This document shows positions 1 through 31,650 of a stretch of 64,000 nt of DNA, piece by piece; positions within the stretch are counted from its first letter, which is position 1; every line of letters starts with the position of its first letter. The notes below the pieces were generated by a model. The model had not been told where the DNA came from. It searched no databases and saw only the letters and a program-made list of their open reading frames with translations. The position numbers and the translations under genes are program-made. This stretch comes from Antedon mediterranea (taxonomy: Eukaryota; Echinodermata; Crinoidea; Comatulida; Antedonidae), in contig NC_092676.1 of assembly GCF_964355755.1 (NCBI RefSeq), forward strand, positions 13,438,288 to 13,502,287, read 5' to 3'.

Positions 1-804
1 ACATACATCGACCCCGATTTTACGTACAGACATTGACCTCGATTTTACGTACATGCACCGACCTTGATTTTACGTACAGACATCGACCTCGATTTTACGT
101 ACAGTCATCGACCTAGTTTTGACGTACAGACATCGACACAGATTTTACGCAAAAATATCGACCCCGATTTCACGTACAGACATCGACCACGTTTTTACGT
201 ACAGACATCAACCTAGTTTTTACGTACAGACATCGGCCTAGTTTTTACTTACAGACCTAGACATAGTTTTTATGCAATGACAGCAACCCCGACTTTACGT
301 ACAGATATGGACCCCGATTTTACGTACAGACATCGACCTAGTTTTGAACTACAGATATCGACCACGTTTTTACGTACAGACATCGACCCTGATTTTAAGT
401 ACAGACATGTACCTCGATTTCACGTACATACATCGACCAAAAATCAACGTAGAGACATCGACCCCGATTTTACGTACAGACATCGACAATGATTTTACGT
501 ACAGACATCGACCTAGTTTTGACCTACATACATCGACCTAGTTTTCACGTACAGACATCTACCCCGTTTTTACATACAGACATCGATCTAGTTTTTTACG
601 TACAGAGATCGACCTAGTTTTTACGCAAGACATCGACCCCGTATTTACGTACAAACGTCGACCTAGGTTTTACGTACATACATCAACTCCGTTTTTACGT
701 AAAGACATCGACCCCGATTTTACGTACCGACAGCGACCCCGATTTTACGTACAGACATCAACCCCGTTTTGAGGTACAGACATCGACACCGATTTTACGC
801 AAAG

Positions 805-6600: not shown

Positions 6601-9600
6601 GACATCGGCCTAGTTTTTACTTACAGACCTCGACATAGTTTTTATGCAATGACAGCAACCCCGACTTTACGTACAGATATGGACCCCGATTTTACGTACA
6701 GACATCGACCTAGTTTTGAACTACAGATATCGACCACGTTTTTACGTAGAGACATCGACCCTGATTTTAAGTACAGACATGTACCTCGATTTCACGTACA
6801 TACATCGACCAAAAATCAACGTAGAGACATCGACCCCGATTTTACGTACAGACATCGACAATGATTTTACGTACAGACATCGATCTAGTTTTTTACGTAC
6901 AGAGACCGACCTAGTTTTTACGCAAGACATCGACCCCGTATTTACGTACAAACGTCGACCTAGGTTTTACGTACATACATCAACTCCGTTTTTACGTAAA
7001 GACATCGACCCCGATTTTACGTACCGACAGCGACCCCGATTTTACGTACAGACATCAACCCCGTTTTGAGGTACAGACATCGACACCGATTTTACGCAAA
7101 GACAACGATCCAGATTTCACGTACAGACATCGACCCCGATTTTATGAAAGACATCAACCCCGATTTTACGTGCATACATCGACCCCGATTTTACGTACAG
7201 ACATTGACCCAGTTTTTACGTACAGACATTGACCCAGTTTTTACGTACAGACATCAACACCTTTTTACGTACAGACATCGACCTAGTTTTTACGTACAGA
7301 CATCGACCTCGATTTTACGTACATACTTTGACCGCTATTTTACGTACAGACATAGACCTCTTTTTACATACAGACAACGATCCCGATTTTACATACAGAC
7401 ATCGACACCAATTTTACGCAAAGACAACGACCCCGATTTCACGAATAGACATCGATTCCGATTTTACGTACATACATCGACCCGATTTTACGTACAGTCA
7501 TCGACCCAGTTTTTACGTATAAACATCGACCCCGATTTTACGTACATACATCGACCCCGATTTTACGTACAGACATCGACCCCGATTTTACGTACATACA
7601 TCGACCCCGATTTTACATACATACATCGACTCCTATTTTACATACAGACAACGACCCCGATTTTACGTACAGACATTGACCTAGTTTTGACGTACAGATA
7701 TCTACCCCGTTTTGACGTACAGACATCGACACCAATTTTACGCAAAGACAACGACCCCGATTTCACGAATAGACATCGATCCCGTATTTACGTACAGACA
7801 TCGATCCCGTATTTACTTACAGACATCGACCTAGTTTCTACGTGCAAATATGAACCTCGATTTAACGTACTTATATCGATCCCGATTTGACGTACATACA
7901 TCGATCCCGTATTTACGTACAGACATCGATCCCGTATTTACTTACAGACATCAACCTAGTTTCTACGTACAAACATCGATCCCGATTTAACGTACATACA
8001 TCGACCCCGATTTTACGTACATACATCGACCCCGATTTTACGTACAGTCATCGACCCAGTTTTTACGTACATACATCAACCTCGATTTTACGTACAGACA
8101 TTGACCCCGATTTTACGTACAAACATCGACCCCAATTTTACATACATACATCGACTCCTATTTTACATACAGACAACGACCCCGATTTTACGTACAGACA
8201 TCGACCTAGTTTTGTCGTACAGATATCTACCCCGTTTTGACGTACAGACATCGACACCAATTTTACGCAAAGACAACGACCCCGATTTCACGAATATACA
8301 TCGATCCCGTATTTACGTACAGACATCGATCCCGTATTTACTTACAGACATCGACCTAGTTTCTACGTGCAAATATCAACAGTTTTTACATACAGACAGC
8401 GACACCGTTTTACGTACCGATTACGACCCCGATTTTACGTACAGAAATCGACCTAGTTTTTAGGTACAGACATCGACACTGATTTTACGTACAGACATTG
8501 ACCCCGATTTTACGTACAGACATCGACCTAGTTTTTACATACAGACATCGACCCCGTTTTTACATACACATATACATCGACCTCGATTTTACGTATAGAC
8601 ATCGAACCCGTTTTTACGTACAGGTATCGACAATGATTTTACGTACAGACATCAACCTAGTTTTGAACTACAGACATCGACCACGTTTTTACGTACAGAC
8701 ATCGACCCTAATTTTACGTACAGACATGTATCTCGATTTTACGTACATACATCGACCACAAATCAACGTAGAGACATCGACCCCGATTTTACGTACAGAC
8801 ATCGACAATGATTTTACGTACAGACATCGACCCCTATTGTACGTACAGAGATCAACCCAGTTTTTACGTACAGACATCGACCCCGATTTTACGTACATAC
8901 ATCGACCCCTATTTTACGTACAGAGATCGACCCAGTTTTTACGTACCGACATCGACCTCAATTTTACGTACAGACATCGACCCCGATTTTACGTACATAC
9001 ATCGACCCCGATTTTACGTACAGACATTGACCTCGATTTTACGTACATGCACCGACCTTGATTTTACGTACAGACATCGACCTCGATTTTACGTACAGTC
9101 ATCGACCTAGTTTTGACGTACAGACATCGACACAGATTTTACGCAAAAATATCGACCCCGATTTCACGTACAGACATCGACCACGTTTTTACGTACAGAC
9201 ATCAACCTAGTTTTTACGTACAGACATCGGCCTAGTTTTTACTTACAGACCTCGACATAGTTTTTATGCAATGACAGCAACCCCGACTTTACGTACAGAT
9301 ATGGACCCCGATTTTACGTACAGACATCAACACCTTTTTACGTACAAACATCGACCTAGTTTTTACGTACAGACATCGACCTCGATTTTACGTACATACT
9401 TTGACCGCTATTTTACGTACAGACATAGACCTCTTTTTACATACAGACAACGATCCCGATTTTACATACAGACATCGACTCCAATTTTACGCAAAGACAA
9501 CGACCCCGATTTCACGAATAGACATCGATTCCGATTTTACGTACATACATCGACCCGATTTTACGTACAGTCATCGACCCAGTTTTTACGTATAAACATC

Positions 9601-12600
9601 GACCCCGATTTTACGTACATACATCGACCCCGATTTTACGTGCAGACATCGACCCCGATTTTACGTACATACATCGACCCCGATTTTACATACATACATC
9701 GACTCCTATTTTACATACAGACAACGACCCCGATTTTACGTACAGACATTGACCTAGTTTTGACGTACAGATATCTACCCCGTTTTGACGTACAGACATC
9801 GACACCAATTTTACGCAAAGACAACGACCCCAATTTCACGAATAGACATCGATCCCGTATTTACGTACAGACATCGATCCCGTATTTACTTACAGACATC
9901 GACCTAGTTTCTACGTGCAAATATTAACCTCGATTTAACGTACTTATATCGATCCCGATTTGACGTACATACATCGATCCCGTATTTACGTACAGACATC
10001 GATCCCGTATTTACTTACAGACATCAACCTAGTTTCTACGTACAAACATCGATCCCGATTTAACGTACATACATCGACCCCGATTTTACGTACATACATC
10101 GACCCCGATTTTACGTACAGTCATCGACCCAGTTTTTACGTACATACATCAACCTCGATTTTACGTACAGACATTGACCCCGATTTTACGTACATACATC
10201 GACCCCAATTTTACATACATACATCGACTCCTATTTTACATACAGACAACGACCCCGATTTTACGTACAGACATCGACCTAGTTTTGACGTACAGATATC
10301 TACCCCGTTTTGACGTACAGACATCGACACCAATTTTACGCAAAGACAACGACCCCGATTTCACGAATATACATCGATCCCGTATTTACGTACAGACATC
10401 GATCCCGTATTTACTTACAGACATCGACCTAGTTTCTACGTGCAAATATCAACCTCGATTTAACGTACTTATATCGATCCCGATTTGACTTACATACATC
10501 GATCCCGTATTTACGTACAGACATCGATCCCGTATTTACTTACAGACATCGACCTAGTTTCTACGTACAAACATCGATCCCGATTTAACGTACATACATC
10601 GACCCCGATTTTACGTACATACATCGACCCCGATTTTACGTACATACATCGACCACGATTTTACGTACAGACATCGACCCCGATTTTACGTACAGACATC
10701 GACCCCGATTTTCCGTACACGCATCGACTCCGATTTAACGTACAAACATCGATCCCGATTTTATGTATACACATCGACCCCGATTTTACGTACAGACATC
10801 GACCCCGATTTTACGTACATACATCGAACCCAAATTTACGTACAGACATCGACCCCGATTTTACGTACAGACATCGACCCCGATTTTACGTACAGACATC
10901 GACCTAGTTTTTACGTAAAGACATCGACCCTGATTTTACATACAGACATCGACCTAGTTTTTACGTACAGACATCGACCCCGATTTTACGTACAGACATT
11001 GACCTCGATTTTACGTACATGCATCGACCCTGATTTTACGTACAGACATCGACACAGATTTTACGTACATTCATCGACCTAGTTTTGACGTACAGACATC
11101 GACACAGATTTTACGCAAAGATATCGACCCCGATTTCACGTACAGACATCGACCACGATTTTACTTGCAGACATCAAGACAGTTTTTACATACAGACAGC
11201 GACACCGTTTTACGTACCGATTACGACCCCGATTTTACGTACAGAAATCGACCTAGTTTTTAGGTACAGACATCGACACTGATTTTACGTACAGACATTG
11301 ACCCCGATTTTACGTACAGACATCGACCTAGTTTTTACATACAGACATCGACCCCGTTTTTACATACACATATACATCGACCTCGATTTTACGTATAGAC
11401 ATCGAACCCGTTTTTACGTACAGGTATCGACAATGATTTTACGTACAGACATCAACCTAGTTTTGAACTACAGACATCGACCACGTTTTTACGTACAGAC
11501 ATCGACCCTAATTTTACGTACAGACATGTATCTCGATTTTACGTACATAAATCGACCACAAATCAACGTAGAGACATCGACCCCGATTTTACGTACAGAC
11601 ATCGACAATGATTTTACGTACAGACATCGACCCCTATTGTACGTACAGAGATCAACCCAGTTTTTACGTACAGACATCGACCCCGATTTTACGTACATAC
11701 ATCGACCCCTATTTTACGTACAGAGATCGACCTCAATTTTACGTACAGACATCGACCCCGATTTTACGTACATACATCGACCCCGATTTTACGTACAGAC
11801 ATTGACCTCGATTTTACGTACATGTACCGACCTTGATTTTACGTACAGACATCGACCTCGATTTTACGTACAGTCATCGACCTAGTTTTGACGTACAGAC
11901 ATCGACACAGATTTTACGCAAAAATATCGACCCCGATTTCACGTACAGACATCGACCACGTTTTTACGTACAGACATCAACCTAGTTTTTACGTACAGAC
12001 ATCGGCCTAGTTTTTACTTACAGACCTCGACATAGTTTTTATGCAATGACAGCAACCCCGACTTTACGTACAGATATGGACCCCGATTTTACGTACAGAC
12101 ATCGACCTAGTTTTGAACTACAGATATCGACCACGTTTTTACGTACAGACATCGACCCTGATTTTAAGTACAGACATGTACCTCGATTTCACGTACATAC
12201 ATCGACCAAAAATCAACGTAGAGACATCGACCCCGATTTTACGTACAGACATCGACAATGATTTTACGTACAGACATCGACCTAGTTTTGACCTACATAC
12301 ATCGACCTAGTTTTCACGTACAGACATCTACCCCGTTTTTACATACAGACATCGATCTAGTTTTTTACGTACAGAGATCGACCTAGTTTTTACGCAAGAC
12401 ATCGACCCCGTATTTACGTACAAACGTCGACCTAGGTTTTACGTACATACATCAACTCCGTTTTTACGTAAAGACATCGACCCCGATTTTACGTACCGAC
12501 AGCGACCCCGATTTTACGTACAGACATCAACCCCGTTTTGAGGTACAGACATCGACACCGATTTTACGCAAAGACAACGATCCCGATTTCACGTACAGAC

Positions 12601-15600
12601 ATCGACTCCGATTTTATGAAAGACATCAACCCCGATTTTACGTGCATACATCGACCCCGATTTTACGTACAGACATTGACCCAGTTTTTACGTACAGACA
12701 TTGACCCAGTTTTTACGTACAGACATCAACACCTTTTTACGTACAGACATCGACCTAGTTTTTACGTACAGACATCGACCTCGATTTTACGTACATACTT
12801 TGACCGCTATTTTACGTACAGACATAGACCTCTTTTTACATACAGACAACGATCCCGATTTTACATACAGACATCGACACCAATTTTACGCAAAGACAAC
12901 GACCCCGATTTCACGAATAGACATCGATTCCGATTTTACGTACATACATCGACCCGATTTTACGTACAGTCATCGACCCAGTTTTTACGTATAAACATCG
13001 ACCCCGATTTTACGTACATACATCGACACCGATTTTACGTACAGACATCGACCCCGATTTTACGTACATACATCGACCCCGATTTTACATACAGACAACG
13101 ACCCCGATTTTACATACATACATCGACTCCTATTTTACATACAGACAACGACCCCGATTTTACGTACAGACATCGACCTAGTTTTGACGTACAGATATCT
13201 ACCCCGTTTTGACGTACAGACATCGACACCAATTTTACGCAAAGACAACGACCCCGATTTCACGAATAGACATCGATCCCGTATTTACGTACAGACATCG
13301 ATCCCGTTTTTACTTACAGACATCGACCTAGTTTCTACGTGCAAATATGAACCTCGATTTAACGTACTTATATCGATCCCGATTTGACGTACATACATCG
13401 ATCCCGTATTTACGTACAGACATCGATCCCGTATTTACTTACAGACATCAACCTAGTTTCTACGTACAAACATCGATCCCGATTTAACGTACATACATCG
13501 ACCCCAATTTTACGTACATACATCGACCCCGATTTTACGTACAGTCATCGACCCAGTTTTTACGTACATACATCAACCTCGATTTTACGTACAGACAATG
13601 ACCCCGATTTTACGTACATACATCGACCCCGATTTTACATACATACATCGACTCCTATTTTACATATAGACAACGACCCCGATTTTACGTACAGACATCG
13701 ACCTAGTTTTGACGTACAGATATCTACCCCGTTTTGACGTACAGACATCCACACCAATTTTACGCAAAGACAACGACCCCGATTTCACGAATATACATCG
13801 ATCCCGTATTTACGTACAGACATCGATCCCGTATTTACTTACAGACATCGACCTAGTTTCTACGTGCAAATATCAACCTCGATTTAACGTACTTATATCG
13901 ATCCCGATTTGACTTACATACATCGATCCCGTATTTACGTACAGACATCGATCCCGTATTTACTTACAGACATCGACCTAGTTTCTACGTACAAACATCG
14001 ATCCCGATTTAACGTACATACATCGACCCCGATTTTACGTACATACATCGACCCCGATTTTACGTACATACATCGACCACGATTTTACGTACAGACATCG
14101 ACCCCGATTTTACGTACAGACATCGACCCCGATTTTCCGTACACGCATCGACTCCGATTTAACGTACAAACATCGATCCCGATTTTATGTATACACATCG
14201 ACCCCGATTTTACGTACAGACATCGACCCCGATTTTACGTACATACATCGAACCCAAATTTACGTACAGACATCGACCCCGATTTTACGTACAGACATCG
14301 ACCCCGATTTTACGTACAGACATCGACCTAGTTTTTACGTAAAGACATCGACCCTGATTTTACATACAGACATCGACCTAGTTTTTACGTACAGACATCG
14401 ACCCCGTTTTTACATACATATATCGACTCCGTTTTTACGTACAGACATCGACCTAGTTTTTACGTACCGACATCGACCTCAATTTTACGTGCAGACATCG
14501 ACCCCGATTTTACGTACAGACATCGACCTAGCCTTGAACTACAGACATCAACTGCGATTTTACGTACAGACATCGACCTACCTTTTAACTACAGACATCG
14601 ACACCGGTTTTACGTACAGACATCGACCCTGATTTTACATACAGACATCGACCTAGTTTTGACGTACAGACATCGACCCCGTCTTTACATACAGACATCG
14701 ATCTTGTTTTTAAGTACAGAGATCGACCTAGTTTTTACGTACCGACATCGACCCAGTTTTTACATACAGATATCGAATCCGATTTTCCGCACAGACATTG
14801 ACCCCGATTTCACGTGCAGACACCGACCCCATTTTTACGTACAGGCATCGACCCCGATTTAATGTATAGACATCATCAACCCCGATTTTATGTACAGACA
14901 TCGGACTAGTTTTTATGTACAGAAATCGACCTAGTTTTTAGGTACCGACATCGACCTCAATTTTACGTGCAGACATCGACCCCGATTTTACGTACAGACA
15001 TCGACCTAGCTTTGAACTACAGACATCAACTGCGTTTTTACGTAAATATATCGACCCCAATTTTACGTACAGATATCGACCCGATTTTTACGTATAGACA
15101 TCGACCTTGATTTAACGTACAGACATCGAACCCGTTTTTACGTGCAGAGATCGATCCCGTCTTTACATACAGACATCGACCTAGTTTTTACGTAAAGACA
15201 TCGACCCTGATTTTACATACAGACATCGACCTAGTTTTGACGTACAGACATCGATCCCGTTTTTACATACATATATCGACTCCGTTTTTACGTACAGACA
15301 TCGACCTAGTTTTTACGTACCGACATCAACCTTGATTTTACGTGCAGACATTGACCCCGATTTTACGTACATACATCGACCTCGATTTTAGGTACAGACA
15401 TCGACCCCGATTTTACGTACAGACATCGACCTAGTTTTGACGTACAGACATCGACCCAAATTTCACGATCAGACATCGATCCCGTATTTACGTACAGACA
15501 TCGATCTCGTATTTACGTACAGACATCGACCCCGTTTTTACGTACATATGTCGATCCCTATTTTACGTACAGAAATCGACTCCGTTTAACGTACCGACAT

Positions 15601-15983
15601 CGACCCCGATTTTATATACAGACATCGACCTAGTTTTTACGTACAGACATCGACCTAGTTTTTACGTACATACATCGGCCTAGTTTTTACTTACAGACCT
15701 CGACATAGTTTTTATGCAATGACAGCAACCCCGACTTTACGTACAGATATGGACCCCGATTTTACGTACAGACATCGACCCAGTTTTTACGTACAGACAT
15801 CGACCACGTTTTTACGTGCAGACATCGACCCCGTTTTTACGTACAGACATCGACCTAGTTTTGAACTACAGACATCGACATCGACCCTGATTTTACGTAT
15901 AGACATGTATCGCGATTTTACGTACAGACATCGACTTAGTTTTCACGTACAGCATCGACCCTGATTTTAGATACATTCATCTA

Positions 15984-16041
15984 ATAATACTAATAATAAT
16001 AAGATTTTTATAGCGCACATACCACTCCAGAGTGCTCAAGG
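15984..16041. mobile_element. 58-bp foreign insertion in the 25-bp satellite
   Basis: Between ATTCATCTA and CTAGTTTTGACG lie about 58 bases unlike the satellite: a TAA-rich run, then a segment containing TTTTTATAGCGC and CTCCAGAGTGCTCAAGG. The matching satellite stretch near 17410 has the two flanks joined by a single C, so it serves as an empty site. This may be the end of a SINE, a Helitron or a small MITE; the family is not identified. Confidence 0.7.
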
Positions 16042-19000
16042 CTAGTTTTGACGTACAGACATCGACCCCGTTTTTACATACAGATATCGAATCCGATTTT
16101 CCGCACAGACATTGACCCCGATTTCACGTGCAGACACCGACCCCGTTTTTACGTACAGGCATCGACCCCGATTTAATGTATAGACATCGACCCTGATTTT
16201 ATGTACAGACATCGGCCTAGTTTTTATGTACAGACATCGACCTAGTTTTTACGTACCGACATCGACCTCAATTTTACGTGCAGACATCGACCCCGATTTT
16301 ACGTACAGACATCGACCTAGCTTTGAACTACAGACATCGAACCCGTTTTTACGTGCAGAGATCGATCCCGTTTTTACGTACATACATCGACCCCGATTTT
16401 ACGTACAGACATCGACCTAGTTTTGACCTACAGACATCGACTTAGTTTTGACCTACAGACATCGACACCGGTTTTACGTACAGACATCGACCCTGATTTT
16501 AGATACAGACATCGACCTAGTTTTGACGTAGAGACATCGACCCCGTCTTTACATACAGACATCGACCTAGTTTTTACGTAAAGACATCGACCCTGATTTT
16601 ACATACAGACATCGACCTAGTTTTGACGTACAGACATCGACCCCGTTTTTACATACATATATCGACCTAGTTTTTACGTACCGACATCAACCTCGATTTT
16701 ACGTAGAGACATTGACCCCGATTTTACGTACATACATCGACCTCGATTTTAGGTACAGACATCGACCCCGATTTTACGTACAGACATCGACCTAGTTTTG
16801 ACGTACAGACATCGACCCCGATTTCACGATCAGACATCGATCCCGTATTTACGTACAGACATCGATCTCGTATTTACGTACAGACATCGACCCCGTTTTT
16901 ACGTACAGACATCGACCCTGATTTTACGTACATACATCGACCCCGATATAACGTACATATATCGATCCCTATTTTACGTACAGAAATCGACTCCGTTTAA
17001 CGTACCGACATCGACCCCGATTTTATATACAGACATCGACCTAGTTTTTACGTACAGACATCGACCTAGTTTTTACGTACAGACATCGGCCTAGTTTTTA
17101 CTTACAGACGTCGACATAGTTGTTATGCAATGACAGCAACCCCGACTTTACGTACAGATATGGACCCCGATTTTACGTACAGACATCGACCCAGTTTTTA
17201 CGTACAGACATCGACCACGTTTTTACGTACAGACATCGACCCCGTTTTTACGTGCAGACATCGACCCCGTTTTTACGTACAGACATCGACCTAGTTTTGA
17301 ACTACAGACATCGACATCGACCCTGATTTTACGTATAGACATGTATCCCGATTTTACGAACAGACATCGACTTAGTTTTCACGTACATCATCGACCCTGA
17401 TTTTACATACATTCATCTACCTAGTTTTGACGTACAGACATCGACCCCGTTTTTACATACAGATATCGAATCCGATTTTCCGCACAGACATTGACCCCGA
17501 TTTCACGTGCAGACACCGACCCCGTTTTTACGTACAGGCATCGACCCCGATTTAATGTATAGACATCGACCCCGATTTTATGTACAGACATCGGCCTAGT
17601 TTTTATGTACAGACATCGACCTAGTTTTTACGTACCGACATCGACCTCAATTTTACGTGCAGACATCGACCCCGATTTTACGTACAGACAGCGACCTAGC
17701 TTTGAACTACAGACATCAACTGCGTTTTTACGTACATATATTGACCCCAATTTTACGTACAGATATCGACCCAGTTTTTTCGTACAGAAATCGACGCCAT
17801 TTTTACGTACAGACATCGACCCTGATTTTACATACAGAAATGTACCCCGATTTTACGTACAGACATCGACCCCGATTTTACGTATAGACATCGACCTTGA
17901 TTTAACGTACAGACATCGAACCCGTTTTTACGTGAAGACATCGATCCCGTTTTTACGTACATACATTGACCCCGATTTTACGTACAGACATCGACAATGA
18001 TTTTACGTACAGACATCGACCTAGTTTTGACCTACAGACATCGACTTAGTTTTGAACTACAGACATCGACACCGGTTTTACGTACAGACATCGACCCTGA
18101 TTTTACATACAGACATCGACCTAGTTTTGACGTAGAGACATCGACCCCGTCTTTAAATACAGACATCGATCTTGTTTTTTACGTACAGAGATCGACTTAG
18201 TTTTTACGTACCGACATCCACCCCGATTTTACGTACAGACAGCGACCCCGATTTTACATCGACCTAGTTTTGACGGACATTATAACGACCCCGTTTTGAT
18301 GTACATACATCGACACCGATTTTTCGTGCAGACATCGACCCCGATTTTACGTACAGACATCGACCTAGCTTTGAACTACAGACATCGACTGCGTTTTTAC
18401 GTACATACATCGACCCCGATTTTACGTACAGATATCGACCCAGTTTTTTCGTCCAGACATCCACCCCATTTTTACGTACAGACATCGACCTAGTTTTGAA
18501 CTAAAGACATCGACTCCGTTTTTACGTACAGACATCGACCCTGATTTTACATACAGAAATGTACCCCGATTTTGCGTACATACATCGACCCCGATTTTAC
18601 GTATAGACATCGACCTTGATTTAATGTACAGACATCGAACCCGTTTTTACGTTCAGACATCGATCCCGTTTTTACGTACATAAATCGACCAAGATTTAAC
18701 GTAGAGACATTGACCCTGATTTTACATACAGACATCGACCTAGTTTTGACGTACAGACATTGACCCCGTCTTTACATACAGACATCGATCTTGTTTTTTA
18801 AGTACAGAGATCGACCTAGTTTTTACGTACCGACATCGACCCCGATTTTACGTACAGACAGCGACCCCGATTTTACATCGACCTAGTTTTGACGGACATA
18901 TATCGACCCAGTTTTGACGTACAGACATCGACACCGATTTTACGCAAGACGTCGACCCCGATTTCACGTACAGACATCGACCCCGTATTTACATCGACCT

Positions 19001-20971: not shown

Positions 20972-22076
20972 AAATTAAGTGTAGCGCCCCCAACTTTCAT
21001 ATCGTTTTATGGAGTAGCGATTCCGAAAACATATTGTATACAAACCACACGAGATACCCGGAAGCGATCAAGCATAAAACGACTGTATTTTAATAGCCAA
21101 TAAAAACAAATAAAAACCACGAAAGCCAGAAAAATAATGAATATTCATTAGAACAACCCTGGATGAAGGTGAAAAAGATGTTGATATCGTTTTATCACGT
21201 GGATTTTCAGAGGGAATCTAACTGAAAGTTAACCAACATTGTTTTTTTCTCAAGTTATACATTTAAAAAGTAGGTATAAATGTTTTTTTCCATATCAGTT
21301 TAAAAATAATTTTTTTCTGTTGAATTCTTTGATTTAGTTGGATACTTTAGTTATCCTTGAATGTTTTAACAAGGTTCGTATTCATATAACCTGGCTGGAT
21401 TTTTTCCTATGCTAGCTAGGCCCAGGCCGCCTTGCATGGTTAAAACCAGCTGTGTAAGACTAATGGCTGTGTATTTTTAACAGGTAAACATGTCTGTTCT
21501 CGGGCCTGAGTGACAGTTTAAAGCTGTTTCTAGTAGGCTGGCCTGGTCCTAATTAATAATGAGGCCTAGCCTAGAATCTAGCTAGGCCTAAGATATTTAA
21601 AAAATCATATTGGAAGGGGAGTTACACTACAGTAGGTCAGGCTACATGCCTATACTATATATAAAATATAGGCTAAATCAGCAGCAGGTTAAGGCCTAGC
21701 AGCCTACCTAAACCTGTCTTAGTCAAAGATAAGTTCTCGGGGGTGTAATATATTAAAAGAAAGAAGCTATAGAGTACTATGACATTAGATATTTAATTAT
21801 AACAAATGTATATTTCTTTCATATTTGTATTGTATATTTATTATTAATACAGTATTTTGATATGCAATCAAAATCTGAATCAGTAAATAACATCAATTTC
21901 CGTTATCAATCAATTAATATATTAAAACCAAATTAAAATAAAATAACTTCCAAAAAATTCAATTACAATTCATTTGTTAATATTTCCAAAATCATTTTTC
22001 TGGCAATAACAAAAAAACCACTACCATTCATAATATGTACAATACTGTAACAATTAACTGAGTGTGAAATAGCAAA
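20972..22076. other. Non-coding low-copy DNA 3' of the transposase gene
   Basis: AT-rich sequence without a convincing coding region or RNA gene. It starts with TGTAGCGCCCCCAAC next to the satellite, but no matching inverted end was found near 31650. Several GGCCTAG words lie at about 21410-21720. A possible poly(A) signal for the minus-strand gene (AATAAA on the minus strand) is at 21837-21842. Confidence 0.6.
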
Positions 22077-22169
22077 CTATTCCTCAACTTTTCTGCACTT
22101 GGGCCTAGTCACCTCATGCTGGATCTCGGGTGAAATAAAAGTCAGATGTGACTTCATGATTGACATAAG

Positions 22170-22384
22170 CTAGTCGAGGTTGCTCTTTAATCCATATACC
22201 GCCCTTTTCCGGTGATTAAATTCTGAGTGGATTAATTCGCCGCCTTGCTCAGCTAAGAGTCCAACTCCTACTCTCCATTCTCTCATGAACGGTATTGTGT
22301 GGTGCTCCAACATGTGCAATTTTGGTTGAATCACATTTGGAGCGATGCGTCTGTATTCTTTGGAGAACAGTTGTATGTAGGTTT
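22170..22384 (-). CDS. Transposase gene exon 12: HxxxxH and catalytic Glu
   Basis: Starts after acceptor AAAACAG. PKLHMLEHH supplies two histidines (22314-22316 and 22299-22301) with H-x4-H spacing, as in RAG1 H937/H942. LLAEQGGELIHSEFN supplies the presumed catalytic Glu (22236-22238). TAG at 22170-22172 ends the frame, but the same frame then continues about 30 codons to TAG at 22077-22079 with a tail (SPEIQ, then RPKCRKVEE) that looks like a natural C terminus. The stop is probably a recent nonsense mutation. Confidence 0.68.
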
Positions 22385-25300
22385 CTGTTTTGTGAAAAAA
22401 ATGTTTTTTTAAATTTTAACATTTTATTTGAAAGATGTATTGTCTTTTGAAATGACAAAAAATCATGAATTAAATTTTAATGTAACAAGAAAGTTTATAA
22501 ATGAGAATTTAAATTATACAGATGTTTGAAGAAATTAATCACACATTAAGAATAAATAAAACCAGACAAAATTCACATAATTTGGTCATCAGTTTTTGCT
22601 TACCATATTGATCTATTTCTGAATCAGTGATGTGCCTAGTATGATTTATGCATTCATGGGCATTAGTAAAGGTTTTGAATACAGGTTTAAATGATTCCTG
22701 TATCTTGTGCAATTTTGTTTCAAGCAGTTGCTTACAGTTGGTAGGACAGTGATGTATCTGTTGCTTTAAAGTCATTGAGACACCATCCATGAGCTTTTTT
22801 ATGATGTTGAACTAAAAATAAAATGAATAGTTTAAAATAAAACATTTACAGTATGGCGAGAGTCAATCGCAAATAATTCTTAATTTTATTACTTATTTTG
22901 CTGTGTAAAAATTAACGAACTTCACATTTTAGGAATTTTAGTTACTCACTTTGCATGCTCTGTATACATGGTTTCCCACAAAACTCTTTCCGTGGTACTG
23001 CTGTCGAGGAATTTTATTTTTCCTCAACACCTCGTCCATTTTTGTACATAGAGGTCCAGTTCCAAATGTTATCTCTTGGTTCATAGTACTTCGCTATACA
23101 AAATATAAAAGAAATATAGCATTAATTTTTATAGTAATGTATTGTATGTTTTAGACATAATTTTAAATTTTAAAGGTGTATACTGTAGTACTGACCAAGT
23201 CTTTGACCTCTCGTTCTTTCAGATTTATTATGTGGCCAGTCTCTGCAATCTCTGCAATCTTGTTATGCTGTTTTGTCACAAGTGACACTGAGAGCTCGTT
23301 TCTTAAATCCTCAAGATTCTCTTCGAAAGACTGGATTTTAATCATTGTAGCATTTCGATGAGCTGCAGCTTCTGATATGCTTTTCTCAAAGTCTGCTAGA
23401 TGATCACCTGAGATTAAACAATATTGGTCAATCAAATAAATTTCAATCTGCATCAAAAATGTGCATCAAAATTAGTATATTTAAAAAATGTTAATGATAA
23501 TATGGATAATTCATAGAAAAATAAGTTTCAGCCAAAGGTTTGTTTATTATGCATAAAAACAGGATAAACAATTTCGAAATTTACTGAATTCTATGCTGAA
23601 ATGTATATGAATGTATATTTAAAAAGCAACTTGACCAATTGAGTTTATTTAATGTCAATGTAAAGTTGGAACAACATTTGAAGTTACCAGTCAAGATGTC
23701 ACCATCCTGTCGCATGTTAAAAATTATAACATCAAGATTGTGCACGTCTTTTTCCAGCATATCATATAGTTTCTTAAACAACCCAAGAGAAATATGTAAT
23801 GCTGGTATTGACACCTGGAAAAATAGTTGATTGAGGAAATATTTAATAAAGAGGTATCTATATATAAATTTACGTAAGGGCAAAATTCGGTAAATCTCGG
23901 TTTATTTCTAGAATTTTTACTCGATGGTATATAAAGTTGGTTCGTACTTTCGGTACTGATTTTAACCATCTGATGTAACCCTGTTTACTAATTAAATTGA
24001 GTTAGGTAATTAGTTATTGACGATTAAAACGAATTTAGGTTCAACGATTTGCCCCAAATAGGGGTGTTTTCCGATCGTGGTATACACTGTCTAATGGATG
24101 TCCATCTTGAAAAATACCCGCCACAAAAATACGAGTAGGCTTCGCATTTTCCTATCTCTTCCTACGATAATTGTTTTTAATAGCTGAAAACTGGTTGAAC
24201 AGCTAGAGTACAGCATCATAATGTTGAAGACAGGCCGATTTTCTTAAAAAAATACTATTTTGATATATTTAATATACGATTATACAAATGTATTGATTTG
24301 CGATGAATGGAACATTCCAATCTCTGTTTCACAAGTGTCTATTCCCTCAGGCGTCGTAACTTTATTATTGCAGTTAAACCACCCACATCATCACCTTTCC
24401 CTCACTGGCATGAGTAGCGTTGTAAAACCAGTAGAGAATAGGCCTACGGTACATCACATGCCTTAAACCAACTTAAGTATGAATTGGCTCTAAGAAACAA
24501 TTGAAAACCATTAGGCCTACTAATTAAGTTGAGTTAGATAATTTAATATTATTGACGATTAAATCGAATTTATGATTTTCCCCGAATAGAGGTGGTTTTC
24601 ACAAATTGTTTTACATTATATTATAAACATATACACGTCGTAGTGATGTATCGTTACATGTGCTGTACTATTTCAATCGACTAGGACGGTGATAGTTTCA
24701 ACAAAGTATTACATCGCAATGTTTTACTGTGTTTAGTGGTATATTATTTGTAAAACATGAAAGCAATTAATATTTCGTTACTAAATGGATAAAGAATATA
24801 TTTTAACATTGTTCCTCTTTGCACCCATCCTCTTCCCCAACCCTCAACCCTAATGTTACATACAAAACACAAATTAAGTTTGTTTAAATTTGACTTAAAC
24901 AATTGGTCTTATTTTATAATAATAGGGTGCTAATTTTAGTTGAGTACATAAATCACAGTGTCTATTTATTCGTTCCTGTAAACGACATGTATTATTGTCC
25001 TGCGGTACGTACATTTGAAATCGCCAGTTTTTTAACGCTGAAATTATTAAGTATTCGAGAACCATCTGTGGGCACGACCTAGATGGTACGCGAGCGAAGC
25101 GAGCGTACCATCTAGTATTTATAAATTACTGTAACAATTGTTTGTTTTGACAGTTATTTTATACTAACATTGTTATTTAATATGGAAGTACAAACACACA
25201 TTTCATTGTTTGGAGTGTGTATTAAACTTTCTAAATTGAGATTTTAAATAATTTTGAATTTAACCTAAAATAAACACTGGGGACCTGTGCTGTTATGATT

Positions 25301-27824
25301 ATTTACCTACCCTGTTTAATTCGATGTCTACCAGGTATGGCCTAACAACGCTGTGCGATATTGTTTTGCTTTTTTTTTGTTACTCCCATGGTCTACAAAA
25401 GACTTGTAGTCACGATTGTAGGTCTTGAGACATCTACAGGCTTGAGGAACATTGTTGGTTCTAATGTCATCTTGATTACAAAAACAATAGATGCAACTGT
25501 ACTTTCCTTTAAAAAAAATCAATTTTTAAATCTAAATAATATATATAGTACTTCAGTTTTGTGTAACAAATGCCAAACAATGAGAGCTAATAGCCAAAAT
25601 ATAAAAAAAATTGTATTGAAACTGGAAATTGTACTTACCATTTGGGCCAACAAGTCCATATACCTTTGACAAAAAATTATAATCCCCAAAAAAGAATAGG
25701 CGGATATTGTGAGTTCTGTAAAATGAGAAGTTATTTTCATTCAATTACCATGAATTCTAATTAATTACATTAATCATAATATTAAAGATATACAAATTAT
25801 GTAAAATTTTCAAATTAAGTTGCACATTATAATTATGTAGCTCTGCTATATACTTAAGTCAGTGTTACTCATTCCAATATTATACTACTGTATTTAATAT
25901 TACTGTTTGGTCTTTGGTGAGGTCCACTGGTTTCCATCTAAATCCATGACTTCATCAAGAACCAGTTTAAAGCCTTTTTCGACATTTACTATAAAATCTG
26001 GTGCTTGGAATGCCAAAATGACAATAATATTGTGCAGTGCATTGGGTTTAGGTAAACTGCAAATTTGAACTTCAAATTTAGTGGTATCACCACCCTTGTC
26101 TCCTCCAAACTTGAGAAATATGTCTCCATCTTTGAAGAAGTTCAATTCATCAGACCTACTAAATTTAAAATTGCTTGTTAATTTTTGGTACTTGATTATT
26201 TTGTTAAAAAATTAAATATAATTTAAGTCTTCCCTGACTAGATGTGTAATTATTTTATTCTTATATTTATACCACATGCGATCTATTATAGTATATATAA
26301 TTTGTGCCAATGATACAGTACTGATGTATGAAATAGGTTGGTTTAAAAAATAACAACAAAAAATGTTACATACATATCATATTTGTTTAGGTAGTCATAG
26401 ATTAGTTCTTTGATTTTGGTTAGTCGTACTACTGCAACCTCCTCCAAAACAAGACCTCCTATAGATGTGGCTCCATCTCGTTTGACAAACATGTATTCTA
26501 TAGAATCTACCATGTGATCACAGATAATCTGTTCTTGGCAAATGCGCATTTGCCTTTCAGAAGCCAAAACTCCTGGGCAAAATCTATATTTTTTTAAAAA
26601 ATGCATATACAGTACTGATTAATTATAGTTTTTATAGTTTTCTATAGTATTCTAAATTCAATTTTTAAAAAAGTAAACTGTTGACTGAATAATAGTAAAC
26701 AGTGGCTGTGTGGCCCGACGGAGGTCCACATACCCGACACGAAAAGCAATAATAAAATAAATTACCTCCGCAGTGCTCGTTGCTGGCTCCTATTTATGCG
26801 GCAGGCATTCATGATTGCCAAACATTTTAGGGGGTCCATTTTCTCTTCAGTACTTGTAACACTAACAGTTGTTGTGCACTCCGATTGTTTAACAATGTTT
26901 ATTGGCTGAATTTGATCAAATAAAATATTTGTATGATTTATCAAATAATAATGTATATGAGTGGATCAAGAGTGTAGGCCTACATTATGATAAATTTAAA
27001 TTAATTGTAATGGGTTAAAAAACTCACCCGTCCTCGAGTCATAAGTGACACTTTCTTATTATTCATAAGGTCTTTCCGTACTATGTTGTGTGCCATGCTT
27101 TTCAATTCTTTTGGCCAAACCTCATTTGTTTGGGCAGTACATGTAATTTCTTCAACTGCACTTACAATTTTGGTGAATGCCTGTTCTTTAAACGTTTTGC
27201 AAACATGATTGGGGGTTTCTGACCAAACTAATTGAATTTTACATTGTTTGCATTGCAAAGGGACTCGTTTAAGCGATTGTTCTACAATAAGTGGAACTGG
27301 TTTGAGATCTTGGTCACTGACAATTTTGCTGCACTTAAAACAATCAATTGATTCTCGTCCTACTGCTTTAAACAATTTTTTTATGCAAAATGTACAAACA
27401 AATTTTGACAAGGTGTCTGTTGGCTGTCAATTGACAACAAATTATTTCATATCTGACATTCATATACTTGATTATCGTAATTTTCACAAATTTTAAATTG
27501 AGGATTTAGTAGCAAGGGCTCATGGGTGGGAATAAAACTGCCAGTAGTATTGCTTCTGTTTTCGGGAAACTTGCATTTCTTCAGCCTTCGACCAGGTCTT
27601 GATTGTTGACTGAATAAGTAGCACGCTAAGCATTTGTCTCCATGGTCTTTGAAATTAAATAGTGTTATGTTGTGTCCACCAAGTGCGCTAACGTGACAGC
27701 TTGCACATAGCCACTTAAGATTTGGATCCAAATTATATTCATAAGTGTACTTTACATCTTTTATTTTAAATTTGTTTCCGCAACAGTAGCAAAGGGAACT
27801 TAATGCCCTTTCGTGAAACTCCAT
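22170..27824 (-). CDS. RAG1/Transib-like DDE transposase gene, 12 inferred exons
   Basis: Twelve minus-strand exons give about 835 residues. Exons (high to low coordinate): 27468-27824, 27028-27423, 26766-26905, 26374-26583, 25904-26158, 25639-25715, ~25331-25506, 23688-23814, 23196-23407, 22950-23093, 22604-22811, 22170-22384. GT/AG sites and codon phases agree at every junction except exon 7 to 8, where a short exon may be missing. The N-terminal third has many CxxC pairs. Candidate catalytic acids are D (26098-26100, in GGDKGGD), D (25682-25684, in FFFGDYNFL) and E (22236-22238, in AEQGGE). The second D is followed after 18 residues by CIYC, and an H-x4-H precedes the E by about 20 residues. 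These spacings match mouse RAG1 D708, C727/C730, H937/H942 and E962; D600 lies in a similar D-x2-G-D context. Related uncharacterised proteins occur in cnidarians and other marine invertebrates (recollection, unchecked). No RAG2-like partner, terminal repeats or target duplication were found. A premature TAG ends exon 12. Confidence 0.72.
22604..22811 (-). CDS. Transposase gene exon 11
   Basis: 208 bp, phase 0 to phase 1, acceptor TTTTTAG and donor GTAAGC. The helical peptide (FNIIKKLMDGVSMTLKQQIH and onward) includes HHCPTNC. It leads into the H-x4-H and catalytic Glu region in exon 12. Confidence 0.62.
22950..23093 (-). CDS. Transposase gene exon 10: YHGKSFVGNH motif
   Basis: 144 bp, phase 0 on both sides, acceptor TGTATAG and donor GTGAGT. 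It ends with IPRQQYHGKSFVGNHVYRAC, a motif I associate from memory with a family of uncharacterised invertebrate proteins. Spotless splice sites and phase argue that the gene was functional recently. Confidence 0.65.
23196..23407 (-). CDS. Transposase gene exon 9: helical insertion
   Basis: 212 bp, phase 1 to phase 0, acceptor ATCTCAG and donor GTCAGT. The product (GDHLADFEKSISEAAAHRNA, then a Glu/Lys-rich heptad-like stretch to KEREVKDL) is predicted to be a coiled coil. It occupies the position of the helical insertion between the second Asp and the Glu in DDE transposases. Confidence 0.62.
23688..23814 (-). CDS. Transposase gene exon 8: PALHISLG motif
   Basis: 127 bp, phase 0 to phase 1, acceptor TTTCCAG and donor GTAACT. 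It encodes VSIPALHISLGLFKKLYDML and then a helical stretch. The segment resembles RAG1 DALHCDIG, which likewise follows the zinc cysteines. A Helitron (23857-25115) lies in the intron just upstream. Confidence 0.67.
23857..25115 (+). mobile_element. Non-autonomous Helitron in an intron
   Basis: Starts TCTATATATAAATTTACG after an A (23856) and ends in a hairpin closing with CTAG (25112-25115) before a T, as expected for Helitrons, which insert between A and T. The hairpin has 13-bp arms (CTAGATGGTACGC, 25079-25091, and its complement, 25103-25115) around GAGCGAAGCGA. GAGAACCATC precedes it at 25057. No Rep/helicase coding is present. It holds an internal direct repeat of about 90 bp (around 23985 and 24516). 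It lies wholly within the intron between exons 7 and 8 of the transposase gene. Confidence 0.85.
25079..25115 (+). terminator. Helitron 3'-terminal hairpin
   Basis: Perfect 13-bp stem with an 11-nt GAGCGAAGCGA loop, closing at the terminal CTAG. In Helitrons such a hairpin marks the 3' end during rolling-circle transposition. It is not a gene transcription terminator. Confidence 0.8.
25331..25506 (-). CDS. Transposase gene exon 7: CxxC zinc pair
   Basis: Opens with KYSCIYC; the two cysteines (25493-25495 and 25484-25486) lie 19 and 22 residues after the second catalytic Asp, as in RAG1. A lysine-rich segment follows (SNKKKAKQYR). The 3' edge is uncertain. The only GT near the end, ACCTG|GTAGAC at about 25330, is in phase 2 while exon 8 needs phase 0, so a short exon is missing or damaged. 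Confidence 0.62.
25639..25715 (-). CDS. Transposase gene exon 6: second catalytic Asp
   Basis: 77 bp between acceptor TTTACAG and donor GTAAGT, phase 2 to phase 1. It encodes THNIRLFFFGDYNFLSKVYG followed by LVGPNG. The Asp at 25682-25684 is the presumed second catalytic residue. Gly-Leu at positions +9/+10 after the Asp matches RAG1 G717-L718. Confidence 0.72.
25904..26158 (-). CDS. Transposase gene exon 5: first catalytic Asp
   Basis: Encodes the start of the RNase H-like core. FLKFGGDKGGDTTKFEVQ carries the presumed first catalytic Asp (26098-26100) in a D-x2-G-D context like that of RAG1 D600. A KPNA segment and a hydrophobic strand follow. The donor CA|GTAATA at 25902-25903 keeps phase 2 with exon 6; a weaker GTGGAC site 19 bp upstream is also in phase. 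Confidence 0.7.
26374..26583 (-). CDS. Transposase gene exon 4
   Basis: 210 bp, phase 2 on both sides, acceptor ATATAG and donor GTATGT. The peptide starts FCPGVLASERQMR and ends KELIYDYLNKYDM. It leads directly into the presumed catalytic core in exon 5. The predicted fold is mainly helical; no named domain is recognised. Confidence 0.6.
26766..26905 (-). CDS. Transposase gene exon 3
   Basis: 140 bp, phase 0 to phase 2, from acceptor TTCAG (26906-26907 is the AG) to donor GTAATT. It encodes a short linker ending in a basic stretch (RINRSQQRALRR). No domain is recognised; the exon is supported by phase agreement with its neighbours. Confidence 0.55.
27028..27423 (-). CDS. Transposase gene exon 2: second cysteine-rich module
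   Basis: 132 codons in phase 0 on both sides, from acceptor GACAG to donor GTGAGT (27022-27027). CxxC pairs in FVCTFCIKK, DCFKC and QCKQCK, followed by HVC, suggest two zinc sites. The intron before it (27424-27467) is only 44 bp. A lysine-rich segment follows (LMNNKKVSLMTRGR). Confidence 0.62.
27468..27824 (-). CDS. Transposase gene exon 1: N-terminal zinc-binding region
   Basis: Begins with ATG at 27822-27824 (MEFHERALSSLCYCCGNKF). Cysteine pairs at CYCCG, WLCASC and CLACYLF suggest a zinc ribbon or treble-clef module. The frame stops soon after a GTATAT donor at 27466-27467, so splicing is needed to continue. An acceptor-like TATACAG just upstream of the ATG hints at a 5' non-coding exon. 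The gene lies divergently away from the LINE at 28479. Confidence 0.65.
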
Positions 27825-28478
27825 TACTGTATATGAAATAAAATATAATATAAAAGATATTAAATAAAAATAGCTCCGCAGCTTATCTGTGAAATATATT
27901 TGTAATTGTATGTGTAATTTTTATAAAGGCCTATAATAGCATAGTTACAGTAATGACTGTCACTCAGTCACACCAGCTAGCCTAAAAATGCACCAGTAAA
28001 GCAATAATTATTATTATAAACACATGCCATTAATTATTTGATAACAGTTATAATGATTCAATTTAGGATTAGGATAATTAAAGGTTTTACTACTACGAAT
28101 TTTCTATGTTTGGGCCTAGCTTCATCCTAGGCTTACATTACTGTCAAGTTTATCGCCGGCGTCAACGCACTTTCTAAGCCTATCGCCAAACCGTTTTCTC
28201 GCCGATAACAATAACAATGTATAAAGGGGTTGCAAAATATGCGAGTTTTACTAAAAACTGAACCAGGCTATATTAACATAACTTGTATTATTTTATTTAT
28301 ATAATAATGATGGCCTATATTCTAGTTCGTTCTTTTTCTAAAAAAATGAATTATATCCAAAAAATAAGTTAAGAATACAATGATATTTTCTACTTACGAT
28401 TGTTTACTATTTCATTACACAGTTTATATCGACTTCCTGGTTTATGTGTGGGAGATTATTTCAGTAAAATGGACAATA
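27825..28478. other. Intergenic DNA 5' of the transposase gene
   Basis: No coding or RNA gene is recognised between the presumed start of the minus-strand transposase gene and the 3' end of the LINE. It would hold the transposase promoter. A GC-richer patch with ATCGCC words lies at about 28150-28215. No RAG2-like gene is seen. Confidence 0.5.
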
Positions 28479-28697
28479 TTGATTGATTGATTTTATTCGA
28501 TATTCATACAATATACAATATATTAAAAGAATACCTGGATAACCCATTAAGTCGACAAAAAAGTAAACTTATTTCCAATGGGGTCCAATCCGTAATGACT
28601 GAAAAGTGAGTGGTTGGGCCTAGTACAATTATCATTAAGTATGACTCAGTAAAAATGAAAAAACAAGAAAATACATACAATATTAAAAATAACTTAA

Positions 28698-29822
28698 TTA
28701 AACTGAAATTCCAAGCTGTTCATTATTAAAATATTCTTTAAGTTTTATTTTGAAGGTTGAATTATTTTGTATTGATTTGAGTGAATTGGGGAGCCTGTTC
28801 CAGTCACGGATACCTAAGAAATAAAAAGTCGTATCATTAACGCCAGTAGCCTTAGGAGTGACAAAATTAAATGTTGTACCCCTGGTGAAATGGTTATGAT
28901 GATCAGAAATTAACAAAAAGTTATCCTTAAGGAAAGAAGGCGTATTAAAGTTATAACGAATTTTGTGAACATAATTTAATCTTAAAAACTTATTTCTGAG
29001 GCTGACATTAAGAAACCCAAGATCGGAAAGCTCTTTGGCACCTATGTGAGACCTCGGACCAACATTTAAAATGAAACGTGCCATCTTGTTTTGGGAAGTT
29101 TGTAATTTATGTTTAAGATTCTTATTGACACCGCCGTACCATGCCGAGGCAGAATAGTCAAATGTACATTGTATTAAAGCAGTGCTTAATAGTTTACGAC
29201 ATTTTTTATTCAAGCACGAACTTTGCCTATGTAAAAACTTCAACCTTGACTTAACTTTACTGATAACACTAGTTGCAATAATATCACATGATACATATTG
29301 GTCTAAATCAATACCCAAATATTTAACTTGCTTAGTACTTTTGATTCTACGGCCCATTAATTCTACAGAAAACTCTTTAACTTTGTTAAGCTTCGCTCTG
29401 CTACCAAAGATAATACTTTCGGTTTTGCCAACATGTAAAGATAATTTGTTTTCAGTTAACCAGTCCTGGCACTTAGCTAGGACAGTACTTAATTTATGAG
29501 CGATTTTGGTGGCATCGTGATGAGAATACAGAATCGTAGAATCATCAGCATAAAGCAATAATTGAACATCAGAATCAATACAAGAAGCAATATCATTTAA
29601 ATAACATAGAAAAAGAATAGGGCCCAAGATGCTACCTTGCGGTACACCATGAGTAACTATAAGAGGTTCAGAGCAGGTACCATTCACACTGACAACTTGT
29701 GTGCGGGTAGCGAGATAAGATTGAAACCAGTCAGTACACTTAAAACCCATGCATTTTAGCTTGTTAATTAAAATCACATGATCGACGGTATCGAAAGCTT
29801 TTTGTAAGTCAATTAGAACCAT
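28698..29822 (-). pseudogene. LINE reverse transcriptase, palm to C terminus
   Basis: 374 codons open from MVLIDLQKAFDTVDHVILIN. It has RT motif A (LQKAFD), motif B (GVPQGSILGPILF), the catalytic YADDS and a thumb region, then the C-terminal block ending FKIKLKEYFNNEQLG. This is the longest intact coding stretch of the LINE. It lacks its N-terminal part in the same frame, so it could not be made as a working enzyme. Confidence 0.85.
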
Positions 29823-30555
29823 TCCAGTAAGAAGGCCTTTGGACTTATTGTTTTTTTGGAAAGATACCTTTCAACTTGTATAGCTACAGATTTTTCAAGA
29901 ATCTTAGGTACCGTAGGCAGAATACTAATCGGCAGATAATTCTCAACACTTGTTCTAGTATTTTTCTTAAATAGTGGGTTAACTTTAGCAGTTTTAAGAT
30001 CATGAGGAAAACAATTAGTTTTAAACGAAAGGTTAATGATATGAGCTATCGGTTCAGCCATGATTATCGCACCGTCGCGTAAAAATCTTGAGGGAATATT
30101 ATCTAGACCGACGCTTTTGTTTACATTTAGGCTTTCGAGTTGAGTTTTAACAAATTCTATGGTAACAGGCTCCAGCTTAAACATTTTTACTTTTGATTTA
30201 ACGTAGTATTTATGAAGATCGTAACTGGACATGGTGAAAAAACCTATGCATTTTGGGAGTTTTTTGACGAGTGTTGACGCAACATTCGTGGAAAACTCAT
30301 TAAAACGAGAGGCAACGCCTTTTGGACAGAAAGTTTGTTTACCATTGTCATCGAGAACGATTTTAGTGTTTGTTTTACATTTCTTCTCGTATCCGAGCTG
30401 TTTGAGGGTTTTCCATAATTTTTTAGGGTTGTCTTTATTTTCATCAATCTTATTGAGAAAATAATTAGATTTAGCTTTTTTGATCAGCCACTGAGCTTTG
30501 TTCCTAGAGGCACAATAATATTTGTATATATCTAGATTAGTTTTATCTTTCTTGA
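29813..30555 (-). pseudogene. LINE linker and N-terminal reverse transcriptase
   Basis: A frame open from about 30555 covers the endonuclease-RT linker (KLWKTLKQLGY, MSSYDLHKYY) and the RT fingers: KSVGLDNIPSRFLRDGA, FPHDLKTAKVNPLFKK, PISILPTVPKILEK. After VERYLSKK the frame shifts at a poly-A run near 29850. The segment that normally leads to RT motif A (QSGFR-type region) is absent. Confidence 0.8.
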
Positions 30556-30635
30556 ATTTTTTTTAAAGTGTGTCTCTTACTTTGATTTCATTAGCAATTA
30601 CGGAGGTAAACCAGGGTGCTATGTTTTGTTAAAGT

Positions 30636-31376
30636 CTAACTTTTTTGTATTGGCGCTATTGAGTCGATCACCTTAATGATGATATCTTTAAGAGTTAACC
30701 ACGCGATATTTACATCGTCATTATTAGTGACAACAAACCAATCGATATCATTAAGTGTTTCAAGATAGTTATTTACATTATAGTTTTTTAAAGATCGTAA
30801 TTTAGCGGAGTTGTGTTCATTTTTATGAACATGAGACTTAGGTATTTTTCTAGTGCAATAAATAAGAAAATGGTCACTAAGGCCAATATTAATTACTCCA
30901 GATTGCTTCACATTATTTTTTACATTAGTAACAATGTGGTCCAAACATGAGCTAAAGTCACCAAGAACATAAATTTCACTACTCTCTTTGATTTTTGATA
31001 CAGATTCTTCAAAGTTGTTCAGAAATAAAGATACATTCTGTTTTGGTGGGCGGTAGCATGTACCAATCACAATTTCCTTTGAACGAGGCAGATATATATT
31101 TATCCAAATTGCTTCAAAACCGTCGATTTCCAGATCATTTCTACGTGTGAAGGCGCGATCATTTTTTACGTAGATAAAAACTCCACCACCAGACCGGTTT
31201 CTGTCCTTCCTGAGCGCTGTATATCCATCAATTTTGATCTCGTTATCGGTGATGGATTCGTCCAGCCACGACTCGCTGATGGATATAACAGTAGCTTTGG
31301 TCTTTGATGCGATGTTCCTTAGTTCAGACATTTTATGAACTAATGACCGCGCATTGAGGTGAACAAAATGTAGGCC
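30636..31376 (-). pseudogene. LINE AP endonuclease, internally deleted
   Basis: The readable peptide runs from HLNARSL (upstream of the first Met at 31331) through ISESWLDES, GGGVFIYVK, TCYRPP and LGDF to GLSDHFLIY. The catalytic Asp-His pair of the SDH motif is present. Between LGDF and the LDHI segment the usual spacer is missing (SSCLDHIV follows directly), so the fold cannot be complete. A frameshift or stop near 30636 separates it from the RT part. Confidence 0.8.
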
Positions 31377-31390
31377 TTTGTTAATTTCGT

Positions 31391-31650
31391 TTATTTATTA
31401 ATTTATATTAAAGAAACAAAAAAATATTGATTTTTTAATTGAACATAAACTTTTTTAATCGTTTGGTTTTGTATAAAATGTGTTTTCTACATAAAAACTA
31501 ACGGTAGCAAAATTTAATTTGGCGTTCGCGAAATAATGGTTTGTAAACAAAATTCATAAGTTCGCGCGGATCGGAGAGCGTCGTCTGCTAACACTGAAGG
31601 CGCTTTACTTTTTCTGATATCTTAACACTAGTTGAAACAGCTGTGTTGTC
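31391..31650. other. Low-copy DNA between LINE and satellite
   Basis: About 260 bp with no recognised gene, including a GC-richer patch (TCGCGCGGATCGGAGAGCG). It ends where the 186-bp satellite resumes at CGAATTTTCGAAATTGG. It is not an inverted copy of the left edge of the insert at 20972. Confidence 0.5.

Follow-up and report, generated by a model that had tools for sequence, protein, structure and literature searches.

A probable RING-bearing Chapaev transposon in the feather star Antedon mediterranea, with a predicted RAG1-like transposase and unequally spaced ends

The transposons Transib, TransibSU, Chapaev and Chapaev3 are placed in one superfamily in PMC4411706, which assigns a core domain alone to canonical Transib and reports that in two Chapaev subgroups a RING follows the Chapa domain, as it does in RAG1. 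Proteins with DUF1280 are treated in PMC3985635 as putative Chapaev transposases, in one clade with RAG1, and the CMC/CMCT group is defined in PMC12730594 by DDE residues with C(2)C and H(3-4)H motifs. The present study concerns a stretch of 64,000 nucleotides from Antedon mediterranea (contig NC_092676.1, positions 13,438,288 to 13,502,287), referred to as the window and numbered from its first base. A multi-exon gene on its minus strand (27824-22170) had been proposed in a first-pass annotation to represent a distinct branch of the RAG1/Transib family. The gene is assigned here instead to the known Chapaev clade marked by DUF1280, which had already been tied to RAG1 (PMC3985635, PMC4411706), and it lies in what we regard, with a probability of about 0.93, as a defective copy of a RING-bearing Chapaev DNA transposon. 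Its membership in the wider RAG1/Transib/CMC group is upheld, as no comparison placed it outside that group.

The product of the gene was scanned against Pfam, and used in homologue searches, as an 872-aa model that lacks 14 residues, the first two RING cysteines included, because part of the RING had been misread as an intron. The model matched DUF1280 (PF06918) with an E value of 2.2e-12 (47.5 bits, against a cut-off of 25) and, in the absence of those two cysteines, zf-C3HC4 with 24.5 bits (cut-off 21); the full C3HC4 motif is read in the close copies L009, L010 and L011. The first 113 residues of the window-family protein gave no Pfam match, the Chapa zinc domain having been sought. The DDE residues and the C(2)C and H(3-4)H motifs of the CMC/CMCT definition are all present, and in family terms the element is an ordinary Chapaev. 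It shares with RING-bearing Chapaev the DUF1280 core, C(2)C and H(4)H, a RING that follows an N-terminal zinc region, CA..TG ends and 4-bp target duplications, the rule for Chapaev; it differs in that the families are crinoid and in the two-spacing architecture of its ends. Homologues numbered 21, with sea stars, sea urchins, a sea cucumber, an acorn worm and a feather star among their sources. NCBI labels the relatives uncharacterized proteins. One of them, P0001 of A. mediterranea, matches the family F last exon in this genome without a difference across 99 residues (element families are lettered A to H, the window element belonging to A). A CACTA/Mirage affiliation was considered and rejected, no match to Transposase_21 or DUF1258 being found among eight proteins (E values up to 10 were requested, with filters that discard most above 0.1).

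All five of the codons singled out in the first-pass annotation are present on the minus strand: Asp at 26098-26100 (within GGDKGG), Asp at 25682-25684, His at 22314-22316 and 22299-22301, and Glu at 22236-22238. The spacings claimed for them hold as well, with 18 residues between the second Asp and the first cysteine of C-x2-C, an H-x4-H, and Glu 21 residues beyond the second His. By the residue numbering of RAG1, the latter distance is 20 residues in RAG1, not 21. In an alignment of a sibling protein with 19 of the 21 homologues (P0005 and P0021 were left out), both Asp residues are kept in 20 of 20 proteins, and the two cysteines, the His of PALHISLG, both His of H-x4-H and the Glu in 19 of 19, each of these columns having a single gap. 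This conservation argues that the catalytic and zinc motif did not arise by chance, and the proposal of a DDE transposase with many exons is borne out.

Comparison of the close copies L009-L011 with the window by blastn delimits one element, 20972-31645 on the minus strand, around the gene, so that the 5′-end of the gene lies to the right. When the last exon was searched against the genome of the organism (354 Mb in 18 contigs), 92 matches were returned. Seven of these, the window copy counted, are 96-100% identical, and one of the seven has an internal stop. The siblings L009, L010 and L011 measure 6771, 6786 and 6778 bp, have both ends, and contain open frames in 11 exons with spliced proteins of 883, 886 and 886 aa. 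L009 and L010 differ at two of 6771 aligned positions, and the divergence of the window copy from the three is 2.19%. Internally deleted family A derivatives of about 3.7 kb, without roughly exons 1-5, are numerous and widely dispersed (L037-L043 and those of the facing pairs described below that have this length). The window and L013 elements of family A have an identical 12-bp 5′-flank (L036, L034), so that one of the two may have spread as a passenger of a repeat.

A 4-bp target duplication fits all eight elements for which both flanks were read (L009, L010, L011, L030/L014, L023/L044, L024/L045, L015/L046 and L026), and a 5-bp duplication fits none of them. L015/L046 fits 6 bp as well, in a TC repeat, and L030/L014 also fits 2 bp; the ends of L026 were located by a search that ranks on the 4-bp match. 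The element ends are CA..TG.

Exon borders were set by open frames, splice signals and alignment with the siblings. Exon 1 (27028-27824; all exons are on the minus strand) carries the N-terminal CxxC region and the RING, and its junction with exon 2 (26766-26905) holds a GRP motif at a position like that of the RAG1 nonamer-binding domain. Exon 3 (26374-26583) is followed by exon 4 (25904-26158), with the first catalytic Asp and DUF1280, exon 5 (25639-25715), with the second, and exon 6 (25311-25506), with the zinc C-x2-C. PALHISLG, which contains a conserved third His, lies in exon 7 (23703-23814), a helical, coiled-coil-like region in exon 8 (23196-23407) and YHGKSFVGNH in exon 9 (22950-23093); exon 10 (22604-22811) precedes exon 11 (22170-22384), in which H-x4-H and the catalytic Glu are found. 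About 12 exons had been proposed. The count is 11, since the siblings read through the supposed first intron (27467-27424) as coding sequence, which completes a C3HC4 RING in L009, L010 and L011 (CQIC...CQHFFCTFC...CFNC).

The window copy is dead. Its RING is broken by a TGA at 27449-27447, the codon of the second RING cysteine, for which L009-L012 and L014 have TGC; readthrough of this stop was considered and dropped in view of those five copies. Exon 6 has a 1-bp frameshift relative to the siblings, and exon 11 an early TAG (22172-22170) where the siblings continue. Two insertions foreign to the element are present, and the 3′-terminus has lost its outer 20 bp. The first insertion (23871-25115, plus strand) lies in an intron, starts with TC and has a long hairpin just before its CTAG|T end, features that we take to be those of a Helitron-like, non-autonomous insertion. 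The second (28480-31386, minus strand), upstream of the gene, is a non-long-terminal-repeat retrotransposon (RVT_1, E value 1.5e-26). The naming of relatives as uncharacterized proteins would suit a host gene derived from a domesticated transposase. That origin is most improbable, however, given the stop, frameshift and insertions of the window copy and the fact that siblings on several contigs have termini and are flanked by target duplications.

The siblings are predicted from sequence to encode an 886-aa transposase with a RAG1-like layout: an N-terminal zinc region, a RING/zinc-finger dimerization domain, a GRP linker, and a DDE core with a split C2/H2 zinc site. An overlay of predicted structures agrees with the RAG1-like core first proposed, as the models of the relatives P0002 and P0001 match core RAG1, BbRAGL and HzTransib. 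The N terminus had been described as different from that of RAG1, but is RAG1-like in sequence comparison. The N termini of two DUF1280 relatives, P0012 and P0014, match RAG1_imp_bd above the cut-off, and these two may represent the type of element formerly named N-RAG-TP. Several results weigh against the likeness. The proteins modelled are relatives with 33-37% identity, not the window protein itself. Of the 21 homologues, 19 were used for model A1 and 18 for model A2. A 19-homologue sequence profile found no RAG1 chain in PDB at E values up to 10, so that the link of the core to RAG1 is structural only; helical or coiled-coil similarity accounts for all, or nearly all, of its 12 matches. 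The N-terminal match to RAG1 is narrow, with TRAF6 next at an E value of 5.4e-4 and 1rmd at 6e-4, and P0014 aligns to residues 102-362 of the RAG1 chain (E value 1e-4) behind three other RING matches, COP1 and RBBP6 among those ahead. GRP occurs in three of the 12 rows covering the site (the sibling, P0002 and P0003), GQP in another three, and neither in the other six; the model has middling confidence in this region.

The core fold, the N-terminal RING match and the unlike ends, which recall recombination signal sequences (RSSs), could also be read as signs that the transposon is genuinely RAG-like (RAGL/TransibSU) or forms a new Transib/RAG1 branch. This is judged very unlikely. The duplications are 4 bp and never 5 bp, whereas those of Transib and RAGL elements are 5 bp (PMC4411706, PMC9435367). 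The core matches DUF1280 and not the RAG1 core model (PF12940, which found no match among eight proteins), and the profile search recovered no RAG1. RAGL elements, moreover, carry RAG2L, and the absence of RAG2 noted in the first-pass annotation is sustained, with no second open reading frame (ORF) with a Pfam match found in element L010. The sole ORF of at least 70 codons wholly outside the gene of L010 is a 70-codon antisense frame without a Pfam match, and four of the five antisense ORFs over the gene are likewise without one (one was scanned for 90 of its 112 residues). A RAG2-like gene with exons shorter than 70 codons would escape this search, but the gene flanks measure only about 0.9 and 1.3 kb.

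The ends of the element were compared. The 5′-terminus is the heptamer-like CACAGCT (31639-31645, minus strand). An A-rich block, AGAAAAAGT (31607-31615, minus strand), lies 23 bp inside it, and an inner GC block common to both ends (31596-31604, minus strand; AGCGCCTTC in the window, AGCGCCCTC in siblings) starts 42 bp in. What remains of the 3′-end (20972-20991, plus strand) reads AAATTAAGT, then AGCGCCCCC; in siblings this sequence lies 13 bp inside CACAGCT and the inner block starts 32 bp in. At the 5′-end this GCGCC-type block starts 42 bp in for families A, C and D and 41 bp in for B, and at the 3′-end 32 bp in for A-D alike, so that the distance from terminus to inner block is 9-10 bp greater at the 5′-end. 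In the B relative L022, the 5′-end is shorter. In A, C and D the 5′-end consists of CACAGCT, 23 bp and AGAAAAAGT, and the 3′-end of CACAGCT (CACGGCT in C), 13 bp and [AG]AATTAAGT. The 3′-end of B has AAATAAACC after 13 bp. Family F, 52% identical in the last exon, has CACGGCA, with ACAAAAAGT after 21 bp at the 5′-end and after 12 bp at the 3′-end. Short and long spacers are thus 13/23 bp in A, C and D, 13/about 22 bp in B and 12/21 bp in F. The ends of families E, G and H were not found, and the L027 stretch, which is partly N, was left out.

A genome-wide search with the pattern CACAGCTGTTN{12,42}GCGCCC gave 157 matches, and reversed controls gave 0 and 1. It is apparent that the matches fall almost wholly at two spacings, 153 of them at 22 or 31/32 (N22, 74; N31, 8; N32, 71), with one each at N25, N27, N34 and N41, of which the N34 and N41 sequences appear unrelated. 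Matches that face each other less than 12-13 kb apart form 58 pairs, of which 53 are 22/32, four are 22/31 and one is 22/25; the N25 end reads as a 5′-type end with a deletion. In every pair the two ends are unlike, so that a paired element combines the two types, and the long-spaced end lies upstream of the gene wherever the gene was read. One further end (G000:C4:13878471-13878517), of different sequence but with the same inner block at N31, hints at one more family.

These observations allow a tentative proposal, which we think possible but doubtful, that RING-bearing Chapaev carry RSS-like split signals under a 12/23-like pairing rule. Each signal would consist of a heptamer-like end with CAC, a spacer of 12-13 or 21-23 bp and an A-rich block recognized by a GRP-type domain, and each element would have one short and one long end. 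Alternatively, the spacing may be an accident of descent, left by a 10-bp indel in an ancestor and serving no function; this explanation concerns the ends only and has in our estimate slightly less than an even chance. The unlikeness of 58 of 58 facing pairs does not favour such an accident, but the pairs are not independent, as they descend from few families, and this counts against the pairing rule. Because copies share descent, the independent evidence amounts to five related families, F standing well apart from A-D. Families A-D are close relatives with end sequence in common, which suits the accident; yet A-D and F differ in their end sequences and have the same 9-10 bp offset. The 21-bp end of F comes from one copy, an exact-pattern search having found the 12-bp end in six. 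When sequences were shuffled 5000 times, the observed score for an inner block common to both ends was reached 21 times in A, 402 in B, 2 in C and 1 in D; B is thus the one family of the four in which the sharing is not significant, a further point for the accident.

The RSS nonamer is ACAAAAACC, and the RSS heptamer consensus is CACAGTG. The A-rich block of F matches the nonamer at seven of nine positions. So does the B 3′-end, at 13 bp, and this match in B counts against an accident of spacing. Elsewhere in A-D the match is weak, as the accident would allow. The 5′-ends score six of nine in A, C and D and five of nine in B, and the best scores of the A, C and D 3′-ends fall elsewhere; when places were sampled in the window element with its insertions, the highest score among 43 positions was at least 6 at 45% of them. 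The case for split signals consequently rests on spacing.

That the element was mobile is indicated by observed features, namely termini, 4-bp duplications, copies with open frames, near-identical copies at different sites, and a conserved active site. Cut-and-paste transposition is most likely, with no RAG2 partner. A transposase dimer, with the RING and zinc finger serving in dimerization, may pair one short-spaced and one long-spaced bipartite end, and the GRP segment, at the position of the RAG1 nonamer-binding domain, may bind the A-rich block. Cutting would take place at the CAC termini, with insertion generating the 4-bp target duplication; RAG1-like hairpins in cutting are a guess by analogy.

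Elsewhere in the window, positions 1-18990 are satellite DNA with a 25-bp unit in about 760 copies and a strong one-sign GC skew, and in 33782-63122 tandem arrays are numerous, their units measuring about 186 and 87 bp.

With RAG1 of jawed vertebrates, the enzyme whose cutting assembles antibody genes, the element shares the predicted core fold, DDE, the split zinc site, a RING/zinc-finger dimerization domain and a GRP motif (in family A), and its bipartite ends recall the short and long spacers of RSSs. It differs from RAG1 in a core too diverged for a profile match, in the 4-bp duplication, in that RAG2 was not found, and in its terminus, CACAGCT(G) as opposed to CACAGTG. HzTransib and ProtoRAG/BbRAGL differ from it in their 5-bp duplication. 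AanRAGL of Aureococcus anophagefferens has a comparable arrangement, with 13-bp and 10-bp end elements and spacers of 4 and 13 bp, a 9-bp difference (PMC9435367), but is a RAGL element with a 5-bp duplication and other end sequences. N-RAG-TP of Aplysia is likewise a transposon with a RAG1-like N terminus; it is described in PMC8355894 as only the portion resembling the RAG1 N terminus, whereas here the core lies in the same ORF. No published description of Chapaev ends with unequal spacing was found, although Repbase Reports or the original N-RAG-TP paper may hold one. As far as was found, then, the end architecture appears to be the unpublished part; the family and its kinship with RAG1 are already in print.

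A single ORF combines a RAG1-like N terminus, with its RING, and a core of predicted RAG1 fold, which fits an early joining of these parts (PMC4411706) better than a fusion of separate transposons (PMC8355894). The elements also bear on how the need of RAG1 for two signals with different spacers originated. Asymmetric ends are reported for Transib and RAGL (PMC9435367), and the invertebrate RAGL enzymes are considered probably fairly insensitive to end asymmetry (PMC7204232). If a 12/23-like rule does hold in Chapaev, pairing of unlike ends of the RAG1 type would occur without RAG2 and would be older than the split of Chapaev from Transib/RAG. A Chapaev with the layout of RAG1, near-identical dispersed copies, and one short and one long end would offer a system for testing the pairing of unlike ends by a RAG1-type protein alone.

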